A DNA stretch of 32,879 nt, taken from the NCBI GenBank assembly GCA_025965715.1, contig JAOPWJ010000023.1, positions 1 to 32,879 on the forward strand. Reading direction: 5' to 3'. The first letter of the stretch is position 1; each line of letters opens with the position of its first letter. Below the pieces are notes generated by a model that ran no database searches, was not told where the DNA came from, and was given only the letters and a program-made list of their open reading frames with translations. Source of the DNA: Blastococcus sp. GTDB taxonomy: Bacteria > Actinomycetota > Actinomycetes > Mycobacteriales > Geodermatophilaceae. Positions 16,959 through 32,879 of the stretch are shown in pieces. Position numbers and translations under genes: made by a program.

Positions 16959-17852
16959 GTGAGCGAGCCCGCGCCAACCCTCCCCGCAGACCCCGGCGCG
17001 CTCGCGGTCGCCCTCGAGGCGACGGGCTACCTGCCCGACGAGGGCCTCGCCACCGCCGCGTACCTGGCGCTGGCGATGCACCGGCCGCTGTTCCTCGAGG
17101 GTGAGGCCGGTGTCGGCAAGACCGCACTGGCGCAGGCCATGGCGCAGGTCACCGGGCGGCCGATCTACCGGCTGCAGTGCTACGAGGGCCTGGAGGCCAG
17201 CCAGGCGCTCTACGACTGGGACTTCGGCCGGCAGCTGCTGCACCTGCGGGCCGCCGAGGCCGCGCACGCCCACGAGGACACCGACAAGCTGGAGGCGTCG
17301 CTGTACGACCGGCGCTTCCTGCTCGCGCGGCCTCTCCTGCAGGCGTTGGAGGACTCCCCGAGCGTGCTGCTGGTCGACGAGATCGACCGCGCCGACGACG
17401 AGTTCGAGGCATTCCTGCTCGAGGTCCTCTCCGACTTCACCATCTCCATCCCCGAGCTGGGCACCGTGCGCGCACAGACCCCGCCGCTCGTCGTCCTCAC
17501 CTCCAACCGGACCCGCGAGGTGCACGACGCGCTGAAGCGGCGCTGCCTCTACCACTGGCTGCAGCACCCCGACTTCGATCGCGAGGTCGCCATCCTGCGG
17601 CGCCGGCTGCCGCAGGTGACCGAGCGCCTGGCCCGCGAGGTGGCCCGGGCGACCGCGACCCTGCGCACGCTGGACCTGCTCAAGCCGCCCGGCGTCGCGG
17701 AGGCGATGGACTGGGCGACCGCCCTGCACACCCTCGGCGCGCGGCATCTCGACCCGGATCTGGCGGCCCGCACGCTGGGCGCCGTCCTCAAGTACCGGGA
17801 GGACACCGACCGCGTGCGGGCCCTGGCCGGCGGGACGCTCTTCGGTGGCTGA
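16959..17852 (+). CDS. MoxR-type AAA+ ATPase (CoxD-like)
   Basis: A 297-residue AAA+ chaperone-like ATPase. Walker A is GEAGVGKT (residues 48-55), Walker B is VLLVDEIDRADDEFE, sensor 1 is VVLTSNRTREV and the arginine region is DALKRRCLYHWL. It overlaps by 8 bp the gene for a VWA protein, and that pair matches CoxD-CoxE of carbon monoxide dehydrogenase clusters, where the ATPase helps insert the sulfurated Mo-Cu centre. GTG 16959 follows a -10-like GATGCT (16946-16951) by 7 nt, so it may be leaderless; an ATG at 16947 is an in-frame alternative. Confidence 0.88.
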   Translation: MSEPAPTLPADPGALAVALEATGYLPDEGLATAAYLALAMHRPLFLEGEAGVGKTALAQAMAQVTGRPIYRLQCYEGLEASQALYDWDFGRQLLHLRAAEAAHAHEDTDKLEASLYDRRFLLARPLLQALEDSPSVLLVDEIDRADDEFEAFLLEVLSDFTISIPELGTVRAQTPPLVVLTSNRTREVHDALKRRCLYHWLQHPDFDREVAILRRRLPQVTERLAREVARATATLRTLDLLKPPGVAEAMDWATALHTLGARHLDPDLAARTLGAVLKYREDTDRVRALAGGTLFGG

Positions 17853-18972
17853 GCCCCCGACGGGGACCGCCCCCCGCGACGTCGTGGACACCCTGCTCGG
17901 CTTCGCCCGCACCCTGCGTTCCGCCGGAGTGCCGGCCTCCCCCGACCGGGTGGAGGCGATGCTCGAGGCGCTCGGCATCCTCCGGGTGCTCGACCCGCGC
18001 GACGTCTACTGGGCCGGCCGGCTCACCTTGTGCGGCGGACCGGACGACCTGGACCGCTACGACTGCGCCTTCGCCGCCTGGTTCGCCGGCGAGATGCCGC
18101 GCGCCGTGCCCGCCACGGCCCAGCGCCGGCCGGAGCTGGCGGTGTCCGCGCCGCTGGATCCGGGCCCGGGGGCGGGCGAGGACAGTGACGGGCCGGATCT
18201 GGCCACGCGGGCGGGCGCTGACGAGGTGCTCCGGCATCGCGACGTGGGCGACATGACGCCGGCCGAGCGGGAGCACCTGCGCCGGCTGTTCGCGCTCCTC
18301 GTGCCGGCGTCGCCCATGCGGCCCGCCCGGCGCCGGCGGCCGAGTTCCGGGGGGTCGGTACACCCCGCCCGCACCGTGCGGCAGGCCCTGCACGACGGCG
18401 GCGAGGTGCGGCGGCTGCTGCACCGCCGTCCGCAGGCCCGGCCACGGCGGGTCGTGCTGCTGGTCGACGTGTCCGGCTCGATGACGCCCTACGCCGACGC
18501 CCTGCTGCGGTTCGCGCACGCGGCGGTGCGCGCCCGGCCCGGTTCGACCGAGGTCTTCACGATCGGTACCCGCCTGACCCGGGTGACGCGGGAGCTGCGG
18601 CTGCGCGACCCGGACAAGGCCCTGGCCGCCAGCGGCTCGGCGATCCCCGACTGGTCCGGCGGCACCCGGCTGGGCGAGGTCCTGAAGGCGTTCCTGGACC
18701 GGTGGGGCCAGCGCGGAACGGCGCGCGGCGCGGTGGTGGTGCTGTGCAGCGACGGGTGGGAGCGCGGCGACGCCGCGCTGCTCGGGGAGCAGATGACCCG
18801 GCTGCGGCGGCTGGCGCACACCGTCGTCTGGGTGAATCCGCACAAGGGCCGGACCGGTTACGAGCCGTTGACCGCTGGGATGCGGGCGGCGTTGCCGTCG
18901 GTCGACCACTTCGTGTCCGGGCACAGCATGGCCGCGTTCGAGGAACTGACAGGGGTGATCGGCCGTGCTTGA
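17845..18972 (+). CDS. VWA domain protein, CoxE-like
   Basis: A 375-residue protein. The N-terminal half is helical (DVVDTLLGFARTLRSAGV, LDPRDVYWAGRLTLCG). A polar Pro/Gly/Asp linker leads to DMTPAEREHLRRLF. A von Willebrand A domain starts at about residue 203 with a complete MIDAS, VDVSGSM (Asp208, Ser210, Ser212), followed by SGGTRLGEVLKAFLDRWG and VVLCSDGWERGD. This is the CoxE-type partner of MoxR ATPases. The GTG start overlaps the MoxR stop by 8 bp. In CO dehydrogenase systems CoxD and CoxE mature the enzyme; here the enzyme is not in view. Confidence 0.88.
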   Translation: MAEPPTGTAPRDVVDTLLGFARTLRSAGVPASPDRVEAMLEALGILRVLDPRDVYWAGRLTLCGGPDDLDRYDCAFAAWFAGEMPRAVPATAQRRPELAVSAPLDPGPGAGEDSDGPDLATRAGADEVLRHRDVGDMTPAEREHLRRLFALLVPASPMRPARRRRPSSGGSVHPARTVRQALHDGGEVRRLLHRRPQARPRRVVLLVDVSGSMTPYADALLRFAHAAVRARPGSTEVFTIGTRLTRVTRELRLRDPDKALAASGSAIPDWSGGTRLGEVLKAFLDRWGQRGTARGAVVVLCSDGWERGDAALLGEQMTRLRRLAHTVVWVNPHKGRTGYEPLTAGMRAALPSVDHFVSGHSMAAFEELTGVIGRA

Positions 18973-19012
18973 ACGACTTCCCTGCCCCCCGACGCTCACA
19001 AGCTCGCGCCGG

Positions 19013-19029
19013 GACCCCGCAGCGGGGTC
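19013..19029. terminator. Hairpin between coxE-like and xdhC-like genes
   Basis: GACCCCGC and GCGGGGTC flank a single A, giving a 7-bp stem with a 3-nt loop in practice. It sits in an 86-bp spacer that may attenuate read-through into the XdhC-like gene. The GACCCCGC/GCGGGGTC core and its surroundings look like a dispersed intergenic repeat. Confidence 0.45.
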
Positions 19030-19058
19030 TCCACGCTTCCGAAAGAAGGAGCCCACCC

Positions 19059-20180
19059 ATGCGTGACGTGCTCGACGACCTGGTTGGCTGGTGGCAGGCG
19101 GGCGAGACCGTCGGCATGGGCACCGTGGTCGCCACGTGGCGCTCGGCGCCGCGTCCGGCCGGCGCCTCGATGCTGGTCGGCCCCGACGGCACCGCGGTCG
19201 GCAGCGTCTCCGGCGGCTGCGTCGAGGGCGCCGTCTATGAGGAGGCGAAGGACGCCGCCGACACCGGCGTGCCGACGCTGGAGCGCTACGGCGTCAGTGA
19301 CGACGACGCGTTCGCGGTCGGCCTGACCTGCGGCGGGATCCTCGACGTGTTCGTGGAGTCGATCTCGCGGGAGTCGTTCCCCGAGCTCGGGGAGGTGGCG
19401 GAGTCGGTCGGCCGGCACGAGCCGGTTGCCGTCGTCACGGTGGTCAAGGGTCCCGACGACCGGCTGGGCCGGCGGCTGGTGCTCTGGCCCGACCGGGAGT
19501 CGGGGACCTTCGGTCTGCAACGCCTGGACGACGCCGTGGCGGCCGACGCCCGCGGCATGCTCGCGGCCGGCCGCACCGGGCTGCTGCACGTCGGCCACGA
19601 CGGCGAACGGCGGGGCGACGACCTCACGCTGTTCGTCAACTCCTTCGCCCCGGCTGCCCGGATGGTGGTGTTCGGCGCGATCGACTTCGCCGCCGCCGTG
19701 GCACGCGTGGGCGCCTTCCTCGGCTACCGGGTCACCGTCTGCGACGCCCGGCCGGTGTTCGCGACCCCGAAGCGCTTCCCCGACGCGCACGAGGTCGTCG
19801 TCGAGTGGCCACACCGCTATCTGCAGGCGGAGGTCGACGCCGGGCGGCTCGACGAGCGCACGGTGCTGTGCGTGCTCACCCACGATCCCAAGTTCGACGT
19901 CCCGCTGCTGGAGGTGGCGCTGCGGATCCCGGTCGCCTACGTGGGGGCGATGGGCTCGCGCCGCACCCACGACGAGCGCCTGGCCCGGCTGGCCGAGGCC
20001 GGCCTGACGACGGCGGAGATCGACCGCCTGTCCTCGCCGATCGGCCTGGACCTCGGCGCCCGCACGCCGGAGGAGACCGCGGTGTCCATCGCGGCGGAGA
20101 TCATCGCCGCGCGCTGGGGCGGCACGGGTGAGCGGCTGGCCGGTACCGACGGGCCGATCCACCGGACGGCCGAACGCTGA
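19059..20180 (+). CDS. XdhC/CoxI family molybdoenzyme maturation protein
   Basis: A 373-residue protein. The N-terminal domain (MGTVVATWRSAPRPAGASML, GSVSGGCVEGAVYEEA, VGLTCGGILDVFVE) is XdhC/CoxI, including the conserved Cys in SGGCVE and the TCGG motif. The C-terminal half is the Rossmann-like XdhC_C domain (VVFGAIDFAAAVARVGAFLG, VTVCDARPVFATPKRFPDA, AYVGAMGSRRTHDERLARL). XdhC binds the finished cofactor and promotes its sulfuration before insertion into Mo-hydroxylases. The ATG at 19059 has AAGGAG at 19046-19051 with a 7-nt gap. It follows the CoxD/CoxE-like pair. Confidence 0.93.
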   Translation: MRDVLDDLVGWWQAGETVGMGTVVATWRSAPRPAGASMLVGPDGTAVGSVSGGCVEGAVYEEAKDAADTGVPTLERYGVSDDDAFAVGLTCGGILDVFVESISRESFPELGEVAESVGRHEPVAVVTVVKGPDDRLGRRLVLWPDRESGTFGLQRLDDAVAADARGMLAAGRTGLLHVGHDGERRGDDLTLFVNSFAPAARMVVFGAIDFAAAVARVGAFLGYRVTVCDARPVFATPKRFPDAHEVVVEWPHRYLQAEVDAGRLDERTVLCVLTHDPKFDVPLLEVALRIPVAYVGAMGSRRTHDERLARLAEAGLTTAEIDRLSSPIGLDLGARTPEETAVSIAAEIIAARWGGTGERLAGTDGPIHRTAER

Positions 20181-24467: not shown

Positions 24468-25067
24468 CTACTCGTTCAGCGCGGGGAAGCCGCTGGTCAG
24501 CTGGGCGAGGGAGTCGCGGAGCAGACCGCCCAGCGGGGTCCGCTCGTCGGCCACCCACAGCTCGAACGCCGTCGTGGCGGCCGCCCGGGTGCTGACCGCG
24601 ACGAGCCGCGGCACCAGCGCCGTCGGCGAGCTCCCTGTCCGGTGGGCGACGTGCCGGGCCACCACGCGGTCGATATCGGCGTACCGCAGCTGCGAGTGCG
24701 CCAGGAGCGCCGGCTCGGTCAGGATCAGCTGCATCCGCCCACGCAGCACCGGCAGCTCGGAGTCGGCGTAGTCGTTCACCGCCGCGTAGGCCGCGCACAC
24801 CGACGCGAGGACCGGCTGCTGCGGCTCGGTCGCCGCGAGCAGCTCCTCGAGGCGCGCGACGTGCGCGCGGAAGTCCCCCCAGACGGCGTCGGCCTTGGTG
24901 CCGAAGTACCGGAAGAACGTGCGCCGGCTGATCCCGGCCGCGGCGGCGACGTCGTCGATGATCACGTGCTCGAAGCCCTTGCTGGTGAACAGGTCCAGCG
25001 CAGCGTGCTCGACGCGGGCACGGGTGTCGGCACGCGTGTCGTCGAGGGCCTCGGTCACGCGCGGCAT
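24468..25067 (-). CDS. mftR: Mycofactocin system TetR-family regulator MftR
   Basis: A 199-residue TetR repressor. The N-terminal helix-turn-helix is HAALDLFTSKGFEHVIIDDV then AAAAGISRRTFFRYFGTKAD. The ligand-binding domain includes YADSELPVLRGRMQLILTEP and SQLRYADIDRVVARH, as in MftR. The gene is divergent from mftA across about 130 bp, its standard position. In mycobacteria MftR represses the mft genes and responds to acyl-CoA; the same role is expected here. ATG 25067 has GGGAG at 25074-25078. An alternative GTG at 25058 lies 7 nt after a -10-like CACAAT and would be a leaderless start. Confidence 0.92.
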   Translation of the reverse strand: MPRVTEALDDTRADTRARVEHAALDLFTSKGFEHVIIDDVAAAAGISRRTFFRYFGTKADAVWGDFRAHVARLEELLAATEPQQPVLASVCAAYAAVNDYADSELPVLRGRMQLILTEPALLAHSQLRYADIDRVVARHVAHRTGSSPTALVPRLVAVSTRAAATTAFELWVADERTPLGGLLRDSLAQLTSGFPALNE

Positions 25068-25088
25068 TGTGCTCCCGGCCCGGCCGTC

Positions 25089-25157
25089 GCAACAGCTGCG
25101 CGGAGCGGGGACGGTCGCGAGCCCGCTGTTGCCGGTGGCACTGGGTGTCACTAACGT
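25089..25157 (+). promoter_or_regulatory. mftA promoter with embedded MftR operator candidate
   Basis: -35 TTGCCG (25129-25134), a 17-nt spacer and -10 TAACGT (25152-25157) make a good promoter, with transcription starting about 30 nt before mftA. The spacer itself (25135-25151) is a dyad, GTGGCAC-TGG-GTGTCAC, with 6 of 7 arm positions symmetric. A second, perfect 8-bp inverted repeat, GCAACAGC (25089-25096) and GCTGTTGC (25125-25132), spans the region and overlaps the -35. A TetR-type dimer on the spacer dyad would block RNA polymerase. Confidence 0.6.
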
Positions 25158-25196
25158 GCGCGGCACCCGACCGCGTGCGATTCCCCGGAGGTCCCC

Positions 25197-25319
25197 GTGC
25201 CCGAGACGCCCCAGAGCGACGCACCCGTGGTCGAGACGCCGGTGGCAGTGGAGGAGCTCCTGGTGGAGGAGTCGCTCGTCGAGGAGATCTCCATCGACGG
25301 CATGTGCGGCGTCTACTGA
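25197..25319 (+). CDS. mftA: Mycofactocin precursor peptide MftA
   Basis: A 40-residue precursor peptide. The leader is acidic with a Val/Glu/Leu pattern (VEELLVEESLVEEIS). The C-terminus is the invariant core IDGMCGVY (Cys37, Val39, Tyr40). MftC, with MftB, decarboxylates the terminal Tyr and cross-links it to Val; MftE then releases the modified C-terminal dipeptide, which becomes the redox cofactor. GTG 25197 is preceded by GGAGG (25187-25191) with a 5-nt gap. The stop is 13 bp before mftB. It is short enough to be missed by length-filtered gene callers. Confidence 0.96.
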   Translation: MPETPQSDAPVVETPVAVEELLVEESLVEEISIDGMCGVY

Positions 25320-25332
25320 GCGACCGCTCCCC

Positions 25333-25677
25333 GTGACTCCGGGCTTCGACCCCGACGTCCCCTGGCAGCGCGCCCGGTCGGTGGCTCTGCGGCCCGAGCC
25401 GTTCGGCGCGCTCGCCTACCACTTCGGCAACCGCAAGCTGTCCTTCCTCAAGTCCAAGACCCTCGTCAGGGTCGTCGAGACGCTGGCGGACCATGCCAGC
25501 GCCCGCGCGGCGATCGAGGCGGGCGTGCCCGAGGCGCAGCGACCGGCCTACCTCGAGGCCCTGGCCGACCTGGCCCGGTCGGAGATGATCGAGGTGAGGA
25601 CCTCCCTGCCGCCCACGGGGGGCGACCTCGCGGCGGGCCCCCGTGGGCACGCCGACCACCAGCAGGAGGACACGTGA
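25333..25677 (+). CDS. mftB: Mycofactocin peptide chaperone MftB
   Basis: A 114-residue protein built around a RiPP recognition element that binds the MftA leader and presents it to MftC. Its hallmark is ALRPEPFGALAYHFGNRK followed by LSFLKSKTLVRVVETLAD. The C-terminal 20 residues are polar and probably disordered (GPRGHADHQQEDT). The GTG start lies 13 bp after the mftA stop, and its stop overlaps the mftC GTG, so A, B and C form one transcript. Confidence 0.94.
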   Translation: MTPGFDPDVPWQRARSVALRPEPFGALAYHFGNRKLSFLKSKTLVRVVETLADHASARAAIEAGVPEAQRPAYLEALADLARSEMIEVRTSLPPTGGDLAAGPRGHADHQQEDT

Positions 25678-26888
25678 CCGCCGTCGTTCCCGAGCGTCCC
25701 GTCGGCGGCCGCCTCATCGACCAGTTCGAGTACGGGCTCGACGCCCCGATCTGCCTCACCTGGGAGCTGACGTACGCCTGCAACCTTGCCTGCGTGCACT
25801 GCCTGTCCTCCTCAGGACGGCGGGACCCGCGGGAGCTGTCCACCGCCGAGGCCGAGGCGGTCATCGACGAGTTGCAGCGGATGCAGGTCTTCTACGTCAA
25901 CGTCGGGGGTGGGGAGCCGACCGTCCGGCCGGATTTCTGGCACCTGCTCGACTACGCCGTCCACCACCAGGTCGGGGTCAAGTTCTCCACCAACGGCATC
26001 AGGCTGGACCGCGCCCGCGCCGAGCAGCTCGCCCGCACCGACTACGTCGACGTCCAGATCTCCCTGGACGGCGCGACGGCGGAGGTCAACGACGCCGTCC
26101 GTGGCGCCGGCTCCTTCGCCACCGCCGTCCGGGCGCTGGGGAACCTCGCCGAGGCGGGGATGAAGGACGTCAAGGTCTCGGTCGTCGTGACCCGCGAGAA
26201 CGCCGGCCAACTCGACGCGTTCAAGGCGCTCACCGACTCCTACGGAGCCCAGCTGCGGATCACGCGGTTCCGGCCGTCGGGCCGTGGCGCCGACGTCTGG
26301 GACCGGCTGCACCCGACGCAGGCGCAGCAGCGGGAGCTCTACGCGTGGCTGCTCGCCCACGGGGACGGCGTCCTCACCGGCGACTCGTTCTTCCACCTGT
26401 CCGCCCTCGGCGAGGCGCTGCCCGGGCTCAACCTCTGCGGCGCCGGCCGCGTGGTCTGCCTCATCGACCCGGTCGGCGACGTCTACGCCTGCCCCTTCGC
26501 CATCCACGAGAGCTTCCTGGCCGGCAACGTCCGCGACGACGGCGGGTTCCGGCGGGTGTGGCAGCAGTCCGAGCTGTTCGCGGAGCTGCGACACCCGCAG
26601 ACCGGCGGCGCCTGCACGAAGTGCGCCCACTTCGACGCCTGTCGCGGCGGCTGCATGGCGGCCAAGTTCTTCACCGGCCTGCCGCTGGACGGCCCCGATC
26701 CCGAATGCGTCCAGGGCTACGGCGAGACGGCGCTGGCCGCCCGCGACAGCGGGGCTCCGGCGCCCCGGAGCCATCTCGACCACTCACACCGCGGCCCCGT
26801 CCGTGGACAGCCCACGCTGCTGGGCCTGCCGTCGGTCCCGAGCAAGATCTGCGACGAGTCACCGTTGGCCGGCCTCGCCCCGCGCTGA
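25674..26888 (+). CDS. mftC: Mycofactocin radical SAM maturase MftC
   Basis: A 404-residue radical SAM/SPASM enzyme. The cluster motif is CNLACVHC (Cys36, Cys40, Cys43) in an ELTYACNLAC context. VGGGEPTVRPDFW binds SAM, and FSTNGIRL and DVQISLDGAT complete the barrel. The C-terminal SPASM region carries CGAGRVVCLIDPVGDVYACP, then CTKCAHFDACRGGC, for two auxiliary clusters. It oxidatively decarboxylates the MftA terminal Tyr and forms the Val-Tyr C-C bond. The GTG overlaps the mftB stop. The 76-bp gap after it contains only a CCCCC-GAT-GGGGG hairpin (26898-26910), a possible weak terminator. Confidence 0.96.
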   Translation: MTAVVPERPVGGRLIDQFEYGLDAPICLTWELTYACNLACVHCLSSSGRRDPRELSTAEAEAVIDELQRMQVFYVNVGGGEPTVRPDFWHLLDYAVHHQVGVKFSTNGIRLDRARAEQLARTDYVDVQISLDGATAEVNDAVRGAGSFATAVRALGNLAEAGMKDVKVSVVVTRENAGQLDAFKALTDSYGAQLRITRFRPSGRGADVWDRLHPTQAQQRELYAWLLAHGDGVLTGDSFFHLSALGEALPGLNLCGAGRVVCLIDPVGDVYACPFAIHESFLAGNVRDDGGFRRVWQQSELFAELRHPQTGGACTKCAHFDACRGGCMAAKFFTGLPLDGPDPECVQGYGETALAARDSGAPAPRSHLDHSHRGPVRGQPTLLGLPSVPSKICDESPLAGLAPR

Positions 26889-26964: not shown

Positions 26965-28800
26965 GTGATCCTCGACCTCCGGGACCGTGCTGCCCGGTTG
27001 CTGCCCGAGGGTCGGTTGCTGCCGGAAGCGGTGTGGCAGCAGCGACACCGGGCGATCGTCCGCCTCGCCCTGGCATGCGCCGGCGCCCTCGTTCTCCTGG
27101 CCTGGGGATGGGGCTACGGCCAGCCGGCAGCCGTGGCGGCGCTGGCCGCCGTGGCCGGCCCGATCGCGCTCTCGTTCCTCCCGGGGCTGGGCCGCAAGGG
27201 CCGGGCCGCCGCCACCACGTTCAGCCTGATGGCCGTGTCGGTCGCCCTCGTGCACCTGTGGAGCGGGGTCACCGAGGCCCACTTCATCTTCTTCGTGATG
27301 ATCGGCGTGGTGTCCCTCTACCAGGACTGGGTGCCCTACGGCATCGCCCTGCTGGTGGTCACCGTGCACCACGGCATCGTCGGCACCGTCTTTCCGCACG
27401 CCGTCTACGGCCATGGCGCTCAGCAGGACCCGTGGCTGTGGGCCGCCATCCATGCGGCGTTCGTCCTGGCGGCCAGCCTCGCCCACCTCGCCTCCTGGCG
27501 GCTCAACGAGGATCAAGTGCTCAGCGACCCGCTGACCGGCCTGGCCAACCGGACGCTGCTCGAGGAGTTCACCCAGCGGAGCCTTGAGCGGGGCCGCGCG
27601 GTGAGCGTGCTGTTCATCGACCTCGACGACTTCAAGGACGTCAACGACAGTCGTGGACATGCGGCCGGTGACGAGCTGCTCCTCGTGCTCGCCGATCGGT
27701 TGCGCGGCTGCGTGCGCCCCGGCGACGTCGTCGCCCGCCTTGGTGGCGACGAGTTCGCCATCGTGGTCAACGGCGGGCCGGACGTCGCACGGGCCGCCGG
27801 GGAGCGCGTCCTCACCGCTCTCGCGCTTCCCGTCCCGCTGGACGGCGGCGCCGTGTCGGCTCACGGCAGCATCGGCGTGGCCGCCTCCACCGACTCCGAC
27901 GACTACTCCGCCGGCGCACTGCTGCGCAACGCGGACCTGGCGATGTACCTGGCCAAGGCCCAGGGCAAGAACCGTCTGGTGGTCTACGCCGAGGGCATGG
28001 CCGAGGCGGCTCGCCGCCGGGCTGACCTGACCCGGGACCTGGCCGATGCGGCGGTGTCGGGCCAGCTCGAGGTCCACTACCAGCCGGTGGTCAAGCTGGC
28101 CGACGGACGGATCTCCGGCTTCGAGGCGCTCGTGCGGTGGCACCACCCCGAACGGGGCCTGGTGCCGCCGGCGGAGTTCATCCCCCTCGCCGAGGAGACC
28201 GGCGCGATCAGCGGGATCGGCCGGTGGGTGCTGCGCGAGGCCACTCGGCAGGGCGCCGCCTGGTCTACCGCGACGGGGAGCCCCCTGCGCGTCGCGGTGA
28301 ACCTCTCACCCCGCCAGTTCCAGGACGGCGACGTCACCGCCGACGTCATGGCGGCGCTCGAGGAGAGCGGGCTGCCGGCCGACCAGCTGACGCTGGAGGT
28401 CACCGAGGGGGTCCTGGTCCGGGACCTCGACGCGGTCGTCGCCGAACTCGAGGCGCTCCGCGGCCTGGGGATCCGCATCGCCATCGACGACTTCGGCACC
28501 GGGTTCGCTGGGTTGTCCTACCTCCGGCACCTGCCGGCGGACGTCATCAAGATCGACCGCAGCTTCGTCAGCGACCTGCCGGCCAGCCGGTCGGCGACCA
28601 CCCTCATCACGTCCATCGTCGAACTGGCCCGGACGCTCGGGCTCGATGTCGTGGCCGAGGGGGTCGAGACCGAGGAGCAGCGCCAGGCGCTGGTGGAACT
28701 GAACTGCGCGCGGGCGCAGGGCTACCTGTTCGCCCGCCCGCAGCCCGCGGACCGTTGCGCCGCTCTCCTGCCCGCGCCGTTGACCGCGCCCGTCGGCTGA
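26965..28800 (+). CDS. Membrane-bound GGDEF-EAL cyclic-di-GMP enzyme
   Basis: A 611-residue protein. The N-terminal ~180 residues hold about five hydrophobic segments (near 30-50, 54-72, 84-103, 107-140, 158-178) with a central HHGIVGTVFPHAVYGHG His-rich loop, a possible sensor. A GGDEF domain follows (DPLTGLANR, RLGGDEFAIV with GGDEF at 260-264). An EAL domain follows (FEALVRWHHPERG, Glu387; then NLSPRQFQ, IDDFGTGFAGLSYL, IKIDRSFV, VAEGVETEEQ). Both active-site motifs are intact, so synthesis, hydrolysis or both are possible. It occupies the mftC-mftE interval where mftD is expected. GTG 26965 has no clear ribosome binding site. Confidence 0.93.
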   Translation: MILDLRDRAARLLPEGRLLPEAVWQQRHRAIVRLALACAGALVLLAWGWGYGQPAAVAALAAVAGPIALSFLPGLGRKGRAAATTFSLMAVSVALVHLWSGVTEAHFIFFVMIGVVSLYQDWVPYGIALLVVTVHHGIVGTVFPHAVYGHGAQQDPWLWAAIHAAFVLAASLAHLASWRLNEDQVLSDPLTGLANRTLLEEFTQRSLERGRAVSVLFIDLDDFKDVNDSRGHAAGDELLLVLADRLRGCVRPGDVVARLGGDEFAIVVNGGPDVARAAGERVLTALALPVPLDGGAVSAHGSIGVAASTDSDDYSAGALLRNADLAMYLAKAQGKNRLVVYAEGMAEAARRRADLTRDLADAAVSGQLEVHYQPVVKLADGRISGFEALVRWHHPERGLVPPAEFIPLAEETGAISGIGRWVLREATRQGAAWSTATGSPLRVAVNLSPRQFQDGDVTADVMAALEESGLPADQLTLEVTEGVLVRDLDAVVAELEALRGLGIRIAIDDFGTGFAGLSYLRHLPADVIKIDRSFVSDLPASRSATTLITSIVELARTLGLDVVAEGVETEEQRQALVELNCARAQGYLFARPQPADRCAALLPAPLTAPVG

Positions 28801-28855
28801 ACCTCGGGGGTCGACCTTCTCGTTCTCCCCGGCCTCGATCCGATCGCGGAACGGC

Positions 28856-28917
28856 GGTGGCCGTGGTCGGGGCCGTGGCCGTGGCCGTGACGAGACGGTG
28901 GCCGTGACGAGACGGTG
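28856..28917. repeat. Tandem GGCCGTG repeats in the spacer before mftE
   Basis: The 258-bp gap between the GGDEF-EAL gene and mftE contains a run of GGCCGT hexamers (about 28856-28890) and a 17-bp unit GTGGCCGTGACGAGACG present twice in tandem (28881-28897, 28898-28914), followed by GTG. No gene is seen in the gap. The run could be slippage-prone or, as RNA, structured. Confidence 0.7.
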
Positions 28918-29046
28918 CCCGGCCGGCGGCCCGGGCTGTGCCAGTACTCAGCGGCGCCCCTTCCGGGCGACTCGACCTCCCGGCGACCGGACCGCCCTCG
29001 CGCCTGGTCGACTCCCTCCCGCCCTGCGTTCGGACGGGGGTCTGCG

Positions 29047-29052
29047 TAGCCT
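29047..29052 (+). promoter_or_regulatory. -10 box for leaderless mftE
   Basis: TAGCCT lies 6 nt before the mftE GTG, with no Shine-Dalgarno sequence. It implies mftE can be transcribed apart from mftABC. No firm -35 was identified. Confidence 0.4.
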
Positions 29053-29058
29053 GCGGCG

Positions 29059-29754
29059 GTGCCGTCCCTGGCCGGCTCGGTCTGGCCGGAGATCCCCACC
29101 GCGCCACTGCTCGTCGTCCCCCTCGGTTCGGTGGAGCAGCACGGCCCGCACCTACCGTTGAACACCGACACCGTGGTGGCCGCAGCGCTGGCCGAGGCGG
29201 CGGCAGACGCGCTGGACGGCGCACTGCTGGCGCCGGCCCTGACCTACGGCGCCAGCGGAGAGCACGAGGACTTCCCAGGCACGATCTCCATCGGCACGGA
29301 GGCCCTGACCGGGCTGCTCGTCGAGTACGGCCGCTCCGCCTGCCGCTGGGCCGGCCGGGTGCTGATCGTGAACGGCCACGGCGGCAACCTCGACGCCCTG
29401 CGCGCCGCCGGCACCGTGCTGCGCAGCGAGGGCCGGGACGTCGCCTGGTTCCCGTGCGCGTTTCCGGCCGGCGATGCGCACGCGGGCCGGACCGAGACGT
29501 CACTGATGTTGCACGTGGAACCGAAGCGGGTGCGAGGGACGCGCTCGATCCTGGGGGAGACGGCGGGGATCGCGACGTTGCTGCCCCGGCTGCGCGCCGA
29601 GGGCGTCCGGGCGGTCAGCCCCAACGGCGTGCTCGGCAGCCCGGCCGGCGCCTCGGCCGAAGAGGGCGCAGCGCTCCTCGCCGGACTCGTGCACCAGCTG
29701 GTCGGGGCGGTGTCCGGCTGGCGGGTGGACACGTTCGGGCGGTTGGTCCCGTGA
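29059..29754 (+). CDS. mftE: Mycofactocin peptidase MftE (creatininase family)
   Basis: A 231-residue metal-dependent peptidase of the creatininase superfamily. Likely ligands and catalytic residues are Glu26, His28 and Asp37 (PLGSVEQHGPHLPLNTD), His107 (NGHGGN) and Glu146 (DAHAGRTETS). The segment TYGASGEHEDFPGTISIG is characteristic of MftE rather than true creatininase. It cuts modified MftA to release the Val-Tyr-derived core. It follows a 258-bp gap and is followed after 91 bp by the permease gene. The GTG start appears leaderless. Confidence 0.93.
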   Translation: MPSLAGSVWPEIPTAPLLVVPLGSVEQHGPHLPLNTDTVVAAALAEAAADALDGALLAPALTYGASGEHEDFPGTISIGTEALTGLLVEYGRSACRWAGRVLIVNGHGGNLDALRAAGTVLRSEGRDVAWFPCAFPAGDAHAGRTETSLMLHVEPKRVRGTRSILGETAGIATLLPRLRAEGVRAVSPNGVLGSPAGASAEEGAALLAGLVHQLVGAVSGWRVDTFGRLVP

Positions 29755-29792
29755 CATCCGGTCCGGCGGCCTGCGGCGCGGGCCCCGGGCGC

Positions 29793-29798
29793 TAGTGT
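29793..29798 (+). promoter_or_regulatory. -10 candidate for the permease-hydrolase-mftF transcript
   Basis: TAGTGT lies about 48 nt before the permease ATG, which would leave a leader of about 40 nt carrying the GGAAGGA ribosome binding site at 29828-29834. Confidence 0.35.
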
Positions 29799-29845
29799 CC
29801 GCAACCGAAGCGGGGGCCGGCCCCGGACGGAAGGACGGACGCCAG

Positions 29846-31333
29846 ATGGCTCACCAGCGGGTGCACGCGGGATCCTCGAGCGGAGTTCCGGAGGCGCCGA
29901 CGCCGCGGGTCGCCATCGAGACCAACGGCATCAACGTCATCGCCGAGAACGAGCGCAAGGGCACGCCGCGGCAGCTGTTCTGGCCGTGGTTCGGCGCCAA
30001 CGTCAGCGTCTTCGGCCTGGCCTACGGCTCGTTCCTGCTGGGGTTCGGCATCAGCTTCTGGCAGGCGATCGTCGCCGGCACCATCGGCATCGTCGTCTCC
30101 TTCCTCCTCTGCGGCCTCGTCGCCACCGCGGGCAAGCGCGGCTCCGCGCCGACCCTCGTGCTCAGCCGGGCGGCGTTCGGTGTCAACGGCAACCGGGTGC
30201 CCTCGGTGCTGTCCTGGGTCCTGACCGTGGGCTGGGAGACGGCGCTGGTCTCCCTGGCCACGCTGGCGACCGCGCAGGTCTTCGACCAGCTGGGCTGGGG
30301 CGGAGGGACGGCGACCAAGCTCGTCGCCCTGCTGGTGGTGGCCGCCCTTGTCGTCGGCGGCGGCATCCTGGGCTTCGACGTCATCATGCGCATGCAGGCG
30401 GTCATCACCTGGGTGACCGGCATCCTCACCGTGGTCTATCTCGTGCTCGTCGCCGACCACATGAACTGGTCCGCCGTCGCCGCCCAGCCGAGTGGATCGA
30501 CCGCCGCGTTCATCGGCGCGCTGGTGCTGGCGATGACCGGCTACGGCTTCGGCTGGGTCAACGCCGCTGCCGACTACTCGCGCTACCTGCCCCGCGGGGC
30601 CTCGACCCGGGGCGTCGTCGGCTGGACGACCTTCGGCGGCGCACTGGCCCCGGTGCTGCTGCTCGTCGCCGGCCTGCTGCTGGCCGGTTCGGACAGCGAA
30701 CTCTCCGGCGGCATCGGCGTCGACCCGATCGGCGCGCTCGCCACGATCCTGCCGACCTGGTTCCTCGTGCCGTTCGTCGTCGTCGTCGTGCTCGGGCTCA
30801 TCGGCGGCGCACTGCTGGACATCTACTCCTCGGGCCTGTCGCTGCTCGCGGCCGGTCTCCGGGTGCCGCGGCCGGTGGCGGCGACGATCGATGGAACCCT
30901 CATGGTCATCGGCACCGTCGCGGTCGTCTTCTTCGCCGACAGCTTCATCGGCCCCTTCCAGGGCTTCCTGATCACGCTCGGCGTTCCCATCGCCGCGTGG
31001 TGCGGGATCATGCTGGCCGATCTCGCCCTGCGAAAGCGCGACTACGCCGAGGCGGAGCTGTTCGACCCGCGCGGCCGCTACGGCAGCGTGCAGCCGGTGC
31101 CGCTGGTGCTGCTGGCGTTCGGCACCATTCTCGGCTGGGGGCTGGTCACCAACACCTACGCCGGCTGGCTGGACTGGCAGGGCTACTTCCTCGACGTCGT
31201 CGGGCTGGGCGGGAGGGACGGCGCCTGGGCGTACGCGAACCTCGGTGTGCTGCTGGCCTTCCTCATCGGACTGATCGGCACCCTGGCCCTCCGCCGGTCG
31301 GCGGTGCGCGCACAGGAGACCGCGTCCCGGTGA
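29846..31333 (+). CDS. NCS1-family (cytosine/purine/hydantoin-type) permease
   Basis: A 495-residue transporter with about twelve hydrophobic helices. The N-terminal IETNGINVIAENERKGTPRQ and QLFWPWFGANVSVF, and the helix-6 motif GWVNAAADYSRYLPRG, are typical of NCS1 nucleobase and allantoin symporters. These import nitrogen heterocycles with a cation. ATG 29846 follows GGAAGGA; GTG 29795 is in frame but coincides with the -10. Its stop overlaps the hydrolase start (GTGA), and that gene overlaps mftF, so it belongs to the mycofactocin operon by position. I know of no established NCS1 component in mycofactocin synthesis. Confidence 0.9.
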   Translation: MAHQRVHAGSSSGVPEAPTPRVAIETNGINVIAENERKGTPRQLFWPWFGANVSVFGLAYGSFLLGFGISFWQAIVAGTIGIVVSFLLCGLVATAGKRGSAPTLVLSRAAFGVNGNRVPSVLSWVLTVGWETALVSLATLATAQVFDQLGWGGGTATKLVALLVVAALVVGGGILGFDVIMRMQAVITWVTGILTVVYLVLVADHMNWSAVAAQPSGSTAAFIGALVLAMTGYGFGWVNAAADYSRYLPRGASTRGVVGWTTFGGALAPVLLLVAGLLLAGSDSELSGGIGVDPIGALATILPTWFLVPFVVVVVLGLIGGALLDIYSSGLSLLAAGLRVPRPVAATIDGTLMVIGTVAVVFFADSFIGPFQGFLITLGVPIAAWCGIMLADLALRKRDYAEAELFDPRGRYGSVQPVPLVLLAFGTILGWGLVTNTYAGWLDWQGYFLDVVGLGGRDGAWAYANLGVLLAFLIGLIGTLALRRSAVRAQETASR

Positions 31334-31866
31334 CCCCGGAGGGCTGGCTGGTCGTGGTGGACCTGCAGCGGGTGTTCGGCGACCCCGGCTCGCCGTGGGC
31401 GGCACCGCGGTTCGCCGAGGTGCGGCCACCGATCCATCGGCTGGCCGACGCCTTCGGCGAGCGTGTGGTCTTCACCCGTTTCCTGGCGCCGGCCGAGCCG
31501 ATCGGCGCCTGGCAGGCCTACTACGAGCAGTTCGCCTTCGCGCTGCAGCCGCCGGACTCGGCCCTCTACGACCTCGTCGACGACCCGGCCGGCCGGCCGG
31601 TGGTGAGCGCGACGACGTTCGGCAAGTGGGGTCCCGACCTCGCCGCCGTGGTCGGTGGCGGACCGCTGACCGTCACCGGAGTGGCCACCGACTGCTGTGT
31701 GATCTCCACCGTGCTGCCCGCGGCGGACGCGGGTGTACCGGTGCGTGTGGTGACCGACGCCTGCGCGGGGTCCACCGACGACGACCACGACCGCGCGATC
31801 CGCGTGATGAGCCTCTACGCGCCACTGGTGGAACTGACGACGACGGCCCAGGTCCTCGGCGGTTGA
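31330..31866 (+). CDS. Isochorismatase-superfamily cysteine hydrolase
   Basis: A 178-residue cysteine hydrolase. The catalytic triad is visible: Asp11 (VVVDLQ), Lys99 (TTFGKWG) and Cys123 (GVATDCCVISTVL, with the family's non-proline cis-peptide region before the Cys). The superfamily includes nicotinamidase, N-carbamoylsarcosine amidohydrolase and ureidoacrylate hydrolase, all cleaving amide or carbamoyl C-N bonds. GTG 31330 overlaps the permease stop, and its stop overlaps the mftF TTG. This tight coupling to mftF and to a heterocycle permease suggests processing of an imported amide or ureide. The substrate is not deducible. Confidence 0.9.
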   Translation: MTPEGWLVVVDLQRVFGDPGSPWAAPRFAEVRPPIHRLADAFGERVVFTRFLAPAEPIGAWQAYYEQFAFALQPPDSALYDLVDDPAGRPVVSATTFGKWGPDLAAVVGGGPLTVTGVATDCCVISTVLPAADAGVPVRVVTDACAGSTDDDHDRAIRVMSLYAPLVELTTTAQVLGG

Positions 31867-32879
31867 TCCCCCCGGCACCGCAGGACCGGCTGCCGGACGG
31901 ATTCGCTGTCCGGCTGGACCCGCGGGTCCGCCGTCGCGACGGGGGAACGGCGCTGCTCGGCGGATCGCCCCTGCGGCTGCTGCGGCTCTCGGCCCGCGCC
32001 CGCGAGCTGCTGCCGAACGACCGGCTCGTCGTCCGGAACGCGACGACCGCGGAACTGGCCGCCCGACTGCTGGATGCCGGCCTGGCCCATCCCGACCTGC
32101 CCGCCGTCGCGGCCCCGGACGGGGTCAGGGACGGCGTCACGGACGGTGTCACCGTCGTCGTCCCGGTCAAGGACCGCGCCCAGCCACTGGCCCGGCTGCT
32201 GGCGGCGCTGCGGGCCGACCCGACCACCCGGGAGCTGCCCGTCGTCGTCGTGGACGACGGGTCCGCGGAGCCGGTGCGGGCCGAAGGCGTGCGGGTGATC
32301 CGGCACGAGCGGGCCCGCGGACCGGCCGCCGCGCGGAACGCCGGGCTGCGGATCGCGACGACGGCGACGGTGGCGTTCCTGGACTCCGACTGCGTGCCGC
32401 GGCCCGGCTGGCTCCCGTCCCTCCTCCCGCACCTGGCCGATCCGGTGCTGGCCGTGGTCGCGCCGCGGATCGTTGCGCTGGGGGAGCGGCGACCCACCTG
32501 GCTGAGCGACTACGAGGGCGCGGTCAGCGCGCTGGACATGGGCGAGCACCCCGCCGCCGTGCGGCCGCTGTCCGCGGTGTCGTACGTGCCCAGTGCGGCA
32601 CTCCTGGTGCGCCGGAGGGCGCTCGGCAGCGGCTTCGACGAGACGATGCCCGTCGCCGAGGACGTGGACCTCGTGTGGCGGCTCGCCGCGGCGGGCTGGC
32701 GGGTGCGTTACGAGCCGCGCGCCGCCGTGGCGCACCGGCATCCGGTCGCGACGGGGGAGTGGCTGCGCCGGCGGGCGTCCTACGGCACCGGCGCCGCACT
32801 GCTCGCCGCCCGGCACGGCAGCCTGGTCGCGCCGCTGGTGCTGGCCCCTTCGTCCGCGCTGACCTGGGCGCTCGCGGTG
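31863..32879 (+). CDS. mftF: Mycofactocin glycosyltransferase MftF, N-terminal part
   Basis: The first 339 residues are present; the gene runs off the right edge (full-length members are about 470). The N-terminus has the MftF-specific LPDGFAVRLDPRVRRRD then LLGGSPLRLLRLS. The GT2 domain begins VTVVVPVKDRAQPLARLL with VVVVDDGS, RGPAAARNAGL and the metal-binding DSDC, then AEDVDLVWRLAAAGWRVRYE. MftF adds a beta-1,4-glucan chain to the cofactor in mycobacteria. The TTG start at 31863 overlaps the hydrolase stop (TTGA). No ATG or GTG is better placed. Confidence 0.93.
   Translation, partial: MIPPAPQDRLPDGFAVRLDPRVRRRDGGTALLGGSPLRLLRLSARARELLPNDRLVVRNATTAELAARLLDAGLAHPDLPAVAAPDGVRDGVTDGVTVVVPVKDRAQPLARLLAALRADPTTRELPVVVVDDGSAEPVRAEGVRVIRHERARGPAAARNAGLRIATTATVAFLDSDCVPRPGWLPSLLPHLADPVLAVVAPRIVALGERRPTWLSDYEGAVSALDMGEHPAAVRPLSAVSYVPSAALLVRRRALGSGFDETMPVAEDVDLVWRLAAAGWRVRYEPRAAVAHRHPVATGEWLRRRASYGTGAALLAARHGSLVAPLVLAPSSALTWALAV

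Follow-up and report, generated by a model that had tools for sequence, protein, structure and literature searches.

The mycofactocin (mft) operon of Blastococcus sp. (assembly GCA_025965715.1, contig JAOPWJ010000023.1) contains two genes encoding an NCS1-type permease and an isochorismatase-like cysteine hydrolase, which are located directly before the glycosyltransferase gene mftF. We propose, with a probability of about 0.72, that this pair is an autonomous actinobacterial catabolic module for a nitrogen-rich base, ureide or riboside, which was inserted into the mft operon before mftF. As the pair persists in some relatives that lack the cofactor genes, we consider it most likely to be a lodger in the operon and not a mycofactocin enzyme. 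Units consisting of a transporter and a hydrolase are of a known kind; the variant and its setting are new. The window, i.e. the whole stretch of 32,879 nucleotides that was analysed, carries the following features:

24468 to 25166, minus strand: mftR, TetR-type regulator (longest frame; called gene 24468-25067); TIGR03968, 226.6 bits, cut-off 224.9
25251 to 25316, plus strand: mftA, precursor peptide (model match; called gene 25197-25319); TIGR03969, 40.6 bits, cut-off 25
25333 to 25677, plus strand: mftB; TIGR03967, 110.1 bits, cut-off 33
25674 to 26888, plus strand: mftC, radical SAM maturase; TIGR03962, 648.5 bits, cut-off 265
26965 to 28800, plus strand: GGDEF-EAL protein, between mftC and mftE; PF00990 and PF00563 above cut-off
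29059 to 29754, plus strand: mftE, peptidase; TIGR03964, 334 bits, cut-off 172
29846 to 31333, plus strand: NCS1-type permease, first gene of the pair; PF02133, 122.8 bits, above cut-off
31330 to 31866, plus strand: isochorismatase-fold cysteine hydrolase, second gene of the pair; PF00857, 90.1 bits, cut-off 27
31863 to 32879, plus strand: mftF, glycosyltransferase, first 339 residues, running off the window end; TIGR03965, 382.1 bits, cut-off 280

The locus is the same as the known mftABCDEF cluster, of which mftA, mftB, mftC, mftE and mftF are present together with mftR; a search of the window's own genome, which is 80% complete, gave no match for mftD. In relatives (loci L053 and L054), mftD is found divergently oriented beyond mftR or elsewhere in the genome. 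The GGDEF-EAL (cyclic-di-GMP) protein belongs to a cluster of ten members, the window included, and its gene directly follows mftC in seven other loci (L045, L050, L053, L056, L057, L058 and L068). CoxE-like and XdhC/CoxI-like genes are located upstream of the mft genes (17845-20180), and many relatives encode CO-dehydrogenase-like molybdenum hydroxylase subunits downstream of mftF.

Both genes of the pair share codons with the gene that follows, as had been reported in a preliminary description of this DNA and as can be read directly in the sequence. Permease and hydrolase overlap by 4 bp in the motif GTGA (31330-31333), which combines the hydrolase start codon GTG (31330-31332) with the permease stop codon TGA (31331-31333), and hydrolase and mftF overlap by 4 bp in the motif TTGA (31863-31866), which combines the mftF start codon TTG (31863-31865) with the hydrolase stop codon TGA (31864-31866). 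None of the 14 mftF codons after this TTG is another ATG, GTG or TTG, and the match to the MftF profile model starts at residue 16; TTG is thus the sole common start codon ahead of the conserved part of MftF. On the other side, mftE and the permease gene are separated by 91 bp, and the pair is not coupled to mftE. Among called genes, where some genomes enter twice as a numbered and a named record, the permease-hydrolase overlap of 4 bp is found in 60 of 73 neighbour pairs, and the hydrolase-mftF overlap of 4 bp in 32 of 38 loci in which the hydrolase gene directly precedes mftF, with ATG, GTG or TTG as start codon. Both overlaps are more than chance. The preliminary description had argued that a passenger would rarely be coupled on both sides; however, the permease-hydrolase overlap belongs to the pair and accompanies it wherever it is found, so that only the hydrolase-mftF overlap is specific to this site. 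Neither sigma-70 promoters nor terminators were detected in a scan of positions 28750-32100, for which about 0 promoters and 0.7 terminators would be expected; at 73% G+C this result carries little information, and the hydrolase gene may well contain a promoter for mftF, the condition that the preliminary description had named against its reading.

By profile, the hydrolase is a member of the isochorismatase-like cysteine hydrolases (PF00857). Enzymes of this family that act in the breakdown of N-heterocycles or ureides, namely RutB, the maleamate amidases NicF/Ami, BiuH and TrtA, are 17-24% identical to it. Residues D11 and C123, which we take to be the catalytic Asp and Cys, are kept in 96 (the remaining four being gaps) and all of 100 homologues, respectively, these counts being not fully independent as some family genomes are in twice. 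In contrast to RutB, NicF/Ami, BiuH and TrtA, position 94, presumably that of the usual catalytic lysine of the fold, is alanine in 78 and lysine in 2 of the 100 homologues, and a lysine located five residues further on, Lys99, is present in 98. Lys99 may replace the usual catalytic lysine; with the usual position mostly occupied by alanine and Lys99 displaced by five residues, catalysis by the hydrolase is plausible, but not certain. The best structural folds include amidohydrolases of N-heterocycles and ureides, with several amidases tied, and the best PDB sequence match is a nicotinamidase/pyrazinamidase. The sequence TRDWHPENH of this match, which we assume to be the aspartate-histidine metal site, stands opposite TRFLAPAEP in the hydrolase, and the NCBIfam nicotinamidase model yields 28.9 bits against a cut-off of 174; an identity as nicotinamidase (PncA) was rejected on these grounds. 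The hydrolase also remains below the BiuH equivalog cut-off (26.5 versus 370 bits), and the profile search listed no match of the RutB model.

The permease was assigned to PF02133 and to the NCS1 fold, and it scores 71.6 bits against a cut-off of 353.1 bits for the NCS1 subfamily model TIGR00800. A PDB search by sequence returned nothing at E values up to 0.001 for the first permease alignment and a match to Mhp1 (3e-7) for a broader one. In a VIA-align comparison of the permease model, the permease is 21% identical to the cytosine transporter CodB and 18% identical to the hydantoin transporter Mhp1. Of the residues W117, W220 and N318, which we take to be Mhp1 contacts, W117 is kept, and W220 and N318 are opposite Gly and Asp in an alignment judged by eye. 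The matches to PF02133 and PF00857 agree with the earlier view of the pair as a transporter and a hydrolase of a C-N-cleaving fold family.

To describe the distribution within the Geodermatophilaceae, 112 genomes, assigned to this family through contigs that they share with named records, were searched for the hydrolase (E up to 1e-15) and the permease (E up to 1e-60); here and in the other searches, absence is the lack of a match at the E value used. The hydrolase was found in 63 genomes, mftF in 97 and the permease in 39; a strain-specific insertion was rejected on account of the 63 hydrolase genomes, and the placement between mftE and mftF, whose restriction to this strain had been considered beforehand, is conserved well beyond one strain. 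Hydrolase and mftF occur together in 59 genomes and lie within 300 bp of each other at this conserved position in 58 of them, the exception being G057, whose only hydrolase homologue (49%) is encoded on another contig than mftF. The presence of the two genes is associated across the family (2x2 counts 59/4/38/11, Fisher p 0.023), as would result from physical linkage alone. The 97 mftF-bearing genomes comprise 30 with both genes of the pair, 29 with the hydrolase alone, five with the permease alone and 33 with neither. Two of the five permease-alone genomes, G033 and G060, have permease paralogues (62-63%) on other contigs; at their mft sites, which carry neither gene, mftE and mftF are separated by 38 bp in G033 and directly share 4 bp in G060, which looks like the pre-insertion arrangement. 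One genome, G059, encodes mftC and a hydrolase near a contig end and gave no match for mftF; these two features indicate that mftF is probably missing due to an assembly gap. Permease and hydrolase are separated by 1.1-1.4 kb in ten family genomes, and in two of them (L063 and L064) the gap contains one reversed gene of a protein cluster whose representative is of the siderophore-binding type, with a score below the cut-off of the corresponding model.

The cargo of the mftE-mftF interval is varied and includes, for instance in L051, L055 and L062, a siderophore-binding-type protein, a Hen1/Pnkp RNA-repair pair and ribosomal protein L31. ABC transporter genes are found ahead of mftE in L053, L055 and L056. 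In G079, a permease match beside mftF (C19:159252-160718) is interrupted close to its start by an in-frame TAG and is otherwise open (473 aa); no hydrolase was matched in this genome.

Three family genomes, G090, G093 and G099, which are 95-99% complete, gave no match for MftC, MftD or MftF and retain the overlapping permease-hydrolase pair. The pair is under purifying selection in these genomes, dN/dS among them being 0.083-0.151 in the hydrolase gene and 0.067-0.136 in the permease gene; the one TGA counted in the G099 permease match is the gene's own stop by its coordinates. In a midpoint-rooted hydrolase tree, in which some family genomes enter twice, all family hydrolases except the 49% homologue of G057 fall into one group of 42 rows, whose support of 83/79 is under the 95/80 mark and which includes four non-family rows. 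The hydrolases of the three genomes nest, with a support of 100/99, among Modestobacter rows with mftF at the locus; the likeliest history is therefore that the mft genes were lost and the pair was kept.

The pair is also found outside the family. An alignment scan for the hydrolase, with one genome per species, revealed at least 594 candidate stretches, of which at least 419 were confirmed; the best 80, which lean to close homologues, were used and comprise 54 loci outside and 26 inside the Geodermatophilaceae. Two inside loci (L083 and L094) were dropped from the neighbourhood counts because a simple gene caller did not call a hydrolase, L026 was excluded from one alignment on account of a stop within the matched stretch, and the neighbourhood counts are not all independent, as several family genomes are included as numbered and named records. 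Among these best 80 of at least 419 loci, the outside carriers belong to Streptomyces, Amycolatopsis, Planotetraspora, Pseudonocardia, Kribbella, Leifsonia, other Microbacteriaceae, Intrasporangiaceae and more; the permease gene lies directly upstream of the hydrolase gene in 51 of the 54 outside loci, with the 4-bp overlap in 38 of the 51, and mft genes were called in none of the 54 stretches. The genomes of 40 of these 54 loci were checked for MftF, the 14 omitted all having MAG in their title, and 32 gave no match and eight a match. In a class-wide sample of 345 genomes, the window's own set aside, 28 genomes have the hydrolase, 91 have mftF and three have both, with about 7.4 joint genomes expected among the 344 (Fisher odds ratio 0.31, p 0.07); in these three genomes, the two genes are never on one contig. 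The pair does not occur only with the mft cluster and, unlike the genes of mftABCDEF, is not restricted to mft genomes.

The neighbours of the pair give hints on its substrate class. Within six genes of the hydrolase, a GntR regulator is encoded in 25, an ADP-ribosylglycohydrolase in 24 and a PfkB kinase in 24 of the 54 outside loci (from the best 80 of at least 419). In many lineages, these three genes would complete the operon, and the partner set suggests that a riboside is cleaved and its ribose phosphorylated there. The riboside part is not applicable to the window, since a search for the ADP-ribosylglycohydrolase (E up to 1e-30), whose query recovered 4/4 carriers, gave no match in the 112 family genomes. 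In L114 (10619-12670), ADP-ribosylglycohydrolase and PfkB kinase are fused in one protein adjoining the pair, and L125 (11280-13307) carries the same fusion as judged only by clustering with the L114 protein. Further neighbours also bear on the substrate class. A Paracoccaceae plasmid, the one record with plasmid hydrolase homologues at E up to 1e-20, encodes a distant homologue (38-40%) whose neighbours are two monooxygenases of the NtaA/DmoA type and a molybdenum hydroxylase, with gene annotations nicA and nicB. In the Streptomyces locus L107, the pair is preceded by two molybdenum-hydroxylase pieces, and the clusters around the permease paralogues of G033 (62%) and G060 (63%) encode an adenosine-deaminase-family protein and a monooxygenase of the NtaA type. 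The import of a nitrogen heterocycle or ureide, as suggested in the preliminary description, remains the likeliest kind of role. The permease would import a small nitrogen-rich compound, i.e. a base, ureide or riboside, and the hydrolase would then cleave an amide-type C-N bond of this compound or of a derivative.

With respect to the regulator, the glycohydrolase and the kinase, the outside operons resemble the E. coli locus yegTUVW, which according to the available part of the source encodes a nucleoside-type transporter, an ADP-ribosylglycohydrolase, a putative sugar kinase and a GntR regulator (PMC10819704). However, its transporter is a predicted MFS protein of the nucleoside symporter type, not an NCS1 permease, no cysteine hydrolase is named in that part, and the role proposed there is in glycogen accumulation with ADP-glucose as effector (PMC10819704). 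In the available parts of two other sources, the metformin carrier MetT is described as an NCS1 carrier for a non-cyclic nitrogen-rich compound (PMC13390362), and guanylurea hydrolases are assigned to the family to which the present hydrolase belongs (PMC9800807). In the literature outside most subscription journals, as far as its texts were available, no description of the pair or of its placement at the mft locus and no combination of mycofactocin with isochorismatase was found; the available parts of PMC11778925, PMC9800807, PMC13390362, PMC11633122 and PMC10819704 do not describe the pair or its placement. For mycofactocin and "Geodermatophil-", the genus appears once in the available part of PMC3023750, in a table of dehydrogenase counts.

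The preliminary description had considered that the pair serves mycofactocin. In a first version considered here, the pair supplies or handles a compound that is oxidised by a mycofactocin-dependent dehydrogenase, the coupling to mftF being functional within the Geodermatophilaceae and the pair itself more widespread. The linkage of hydrolase and mftF in 58 of 59 genomes, the conservation of the overlap in 32 of 38 loci despite differing start codons and the 29 mftF-bearing genomes that have the hydrolase and no permease match speak for it; we nevertheless regard it as unlikely, as the pair is maintained by selection in three genomes that gave no match for MftC, MftD or MftF, 33 of 97 mftF-bearing family genomes have neither gene, and linkage to mft is absent outside the family, both in the 54 loci of the best 80 of at least 419 and in the class-wide sample, where the 3/344 joint genomes against about 7.4 expected never carry the genes on one contig. 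A role of the hydrolase in the processing or salvage of mycofactocin, of the leader peptide or of an amide from its breakdown is suggested by the position of the gene between a peptidase and a glycosyltransferase gene, yet is hardly credible: the pair is retained in the genomes with no match for MftC, MftD and MftF, 32 of the 40 checked outside carriers (from the best 80 of at least 419 loci) are without mftF, and an NCS1 permease is an unlikely peptide carrier. Both mycofactocin roles were rejected as the main reading because of the outside occurrence, the class-wide sample, the retention without mft and the genomes with neither gene.

Salvage of nicotinamide (riboside) would assign a step to each partner, with import by the permease, release of nicotinamide by the ADP-ribosylglycohydrolase, deamidation by the hydrolase and phosphorylation of ribose by PfkB. 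The gene set outside the family fits these steps, and so does the best PDB match of the hydrolase; the replaced metal site, the low NCBIfam score and the tie of several amidase folds make this explanation improbable.

For the pair as a lodger, we propose the following course of events. In an ancestor of the Geodermatophilaceae, the pair would have landed between mftE and mftF in a single insertion. The hydrolase stop codon would then have merged with the start codon of mftF, so that translation of mftF is probably coupled to that of the preceding hydrolase gene. The hydrolase stays beside mftF across many species, also without the permease, so that a pure passenger is not an obvious explanation. 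The retained overlap may reflect no more than a dependence of mftF translation on the hydrolase frame, given that the TTG start of mftF in the window is without a simple Shine-Dalgarno match; with the same crude pattern, at least 18 other loci have one. It is tempting to speculate, as a tentative possibility, that permease, hydrolase, GntR regulator, ADP-ribosylglycohydrolase and PfkB kinase form an undescribed actinobacterial base or riboside pathway, in which the amidase lysine has moved by five residues, and that its core captured mftF in the Geodermatophilaceae, so that the supply of the glycosyltransferase would track a substrate-responsive catabolic transcript.

Taken together, these results correct a case of guilt by association, as genes that are locked into a cofactor operon by overlapping codons also occur and persist without the cofactor genes. 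The conserved operon of permease, cysteine hydrolase, ADP-ribosylglycohydrolase and PfkB kinase is small enough for direct substrate screening, and the Geodermatophilaceae provide a natural case in which a gene for cofactor glycosylation is apparently translated behind an unrelated catabolic gene.
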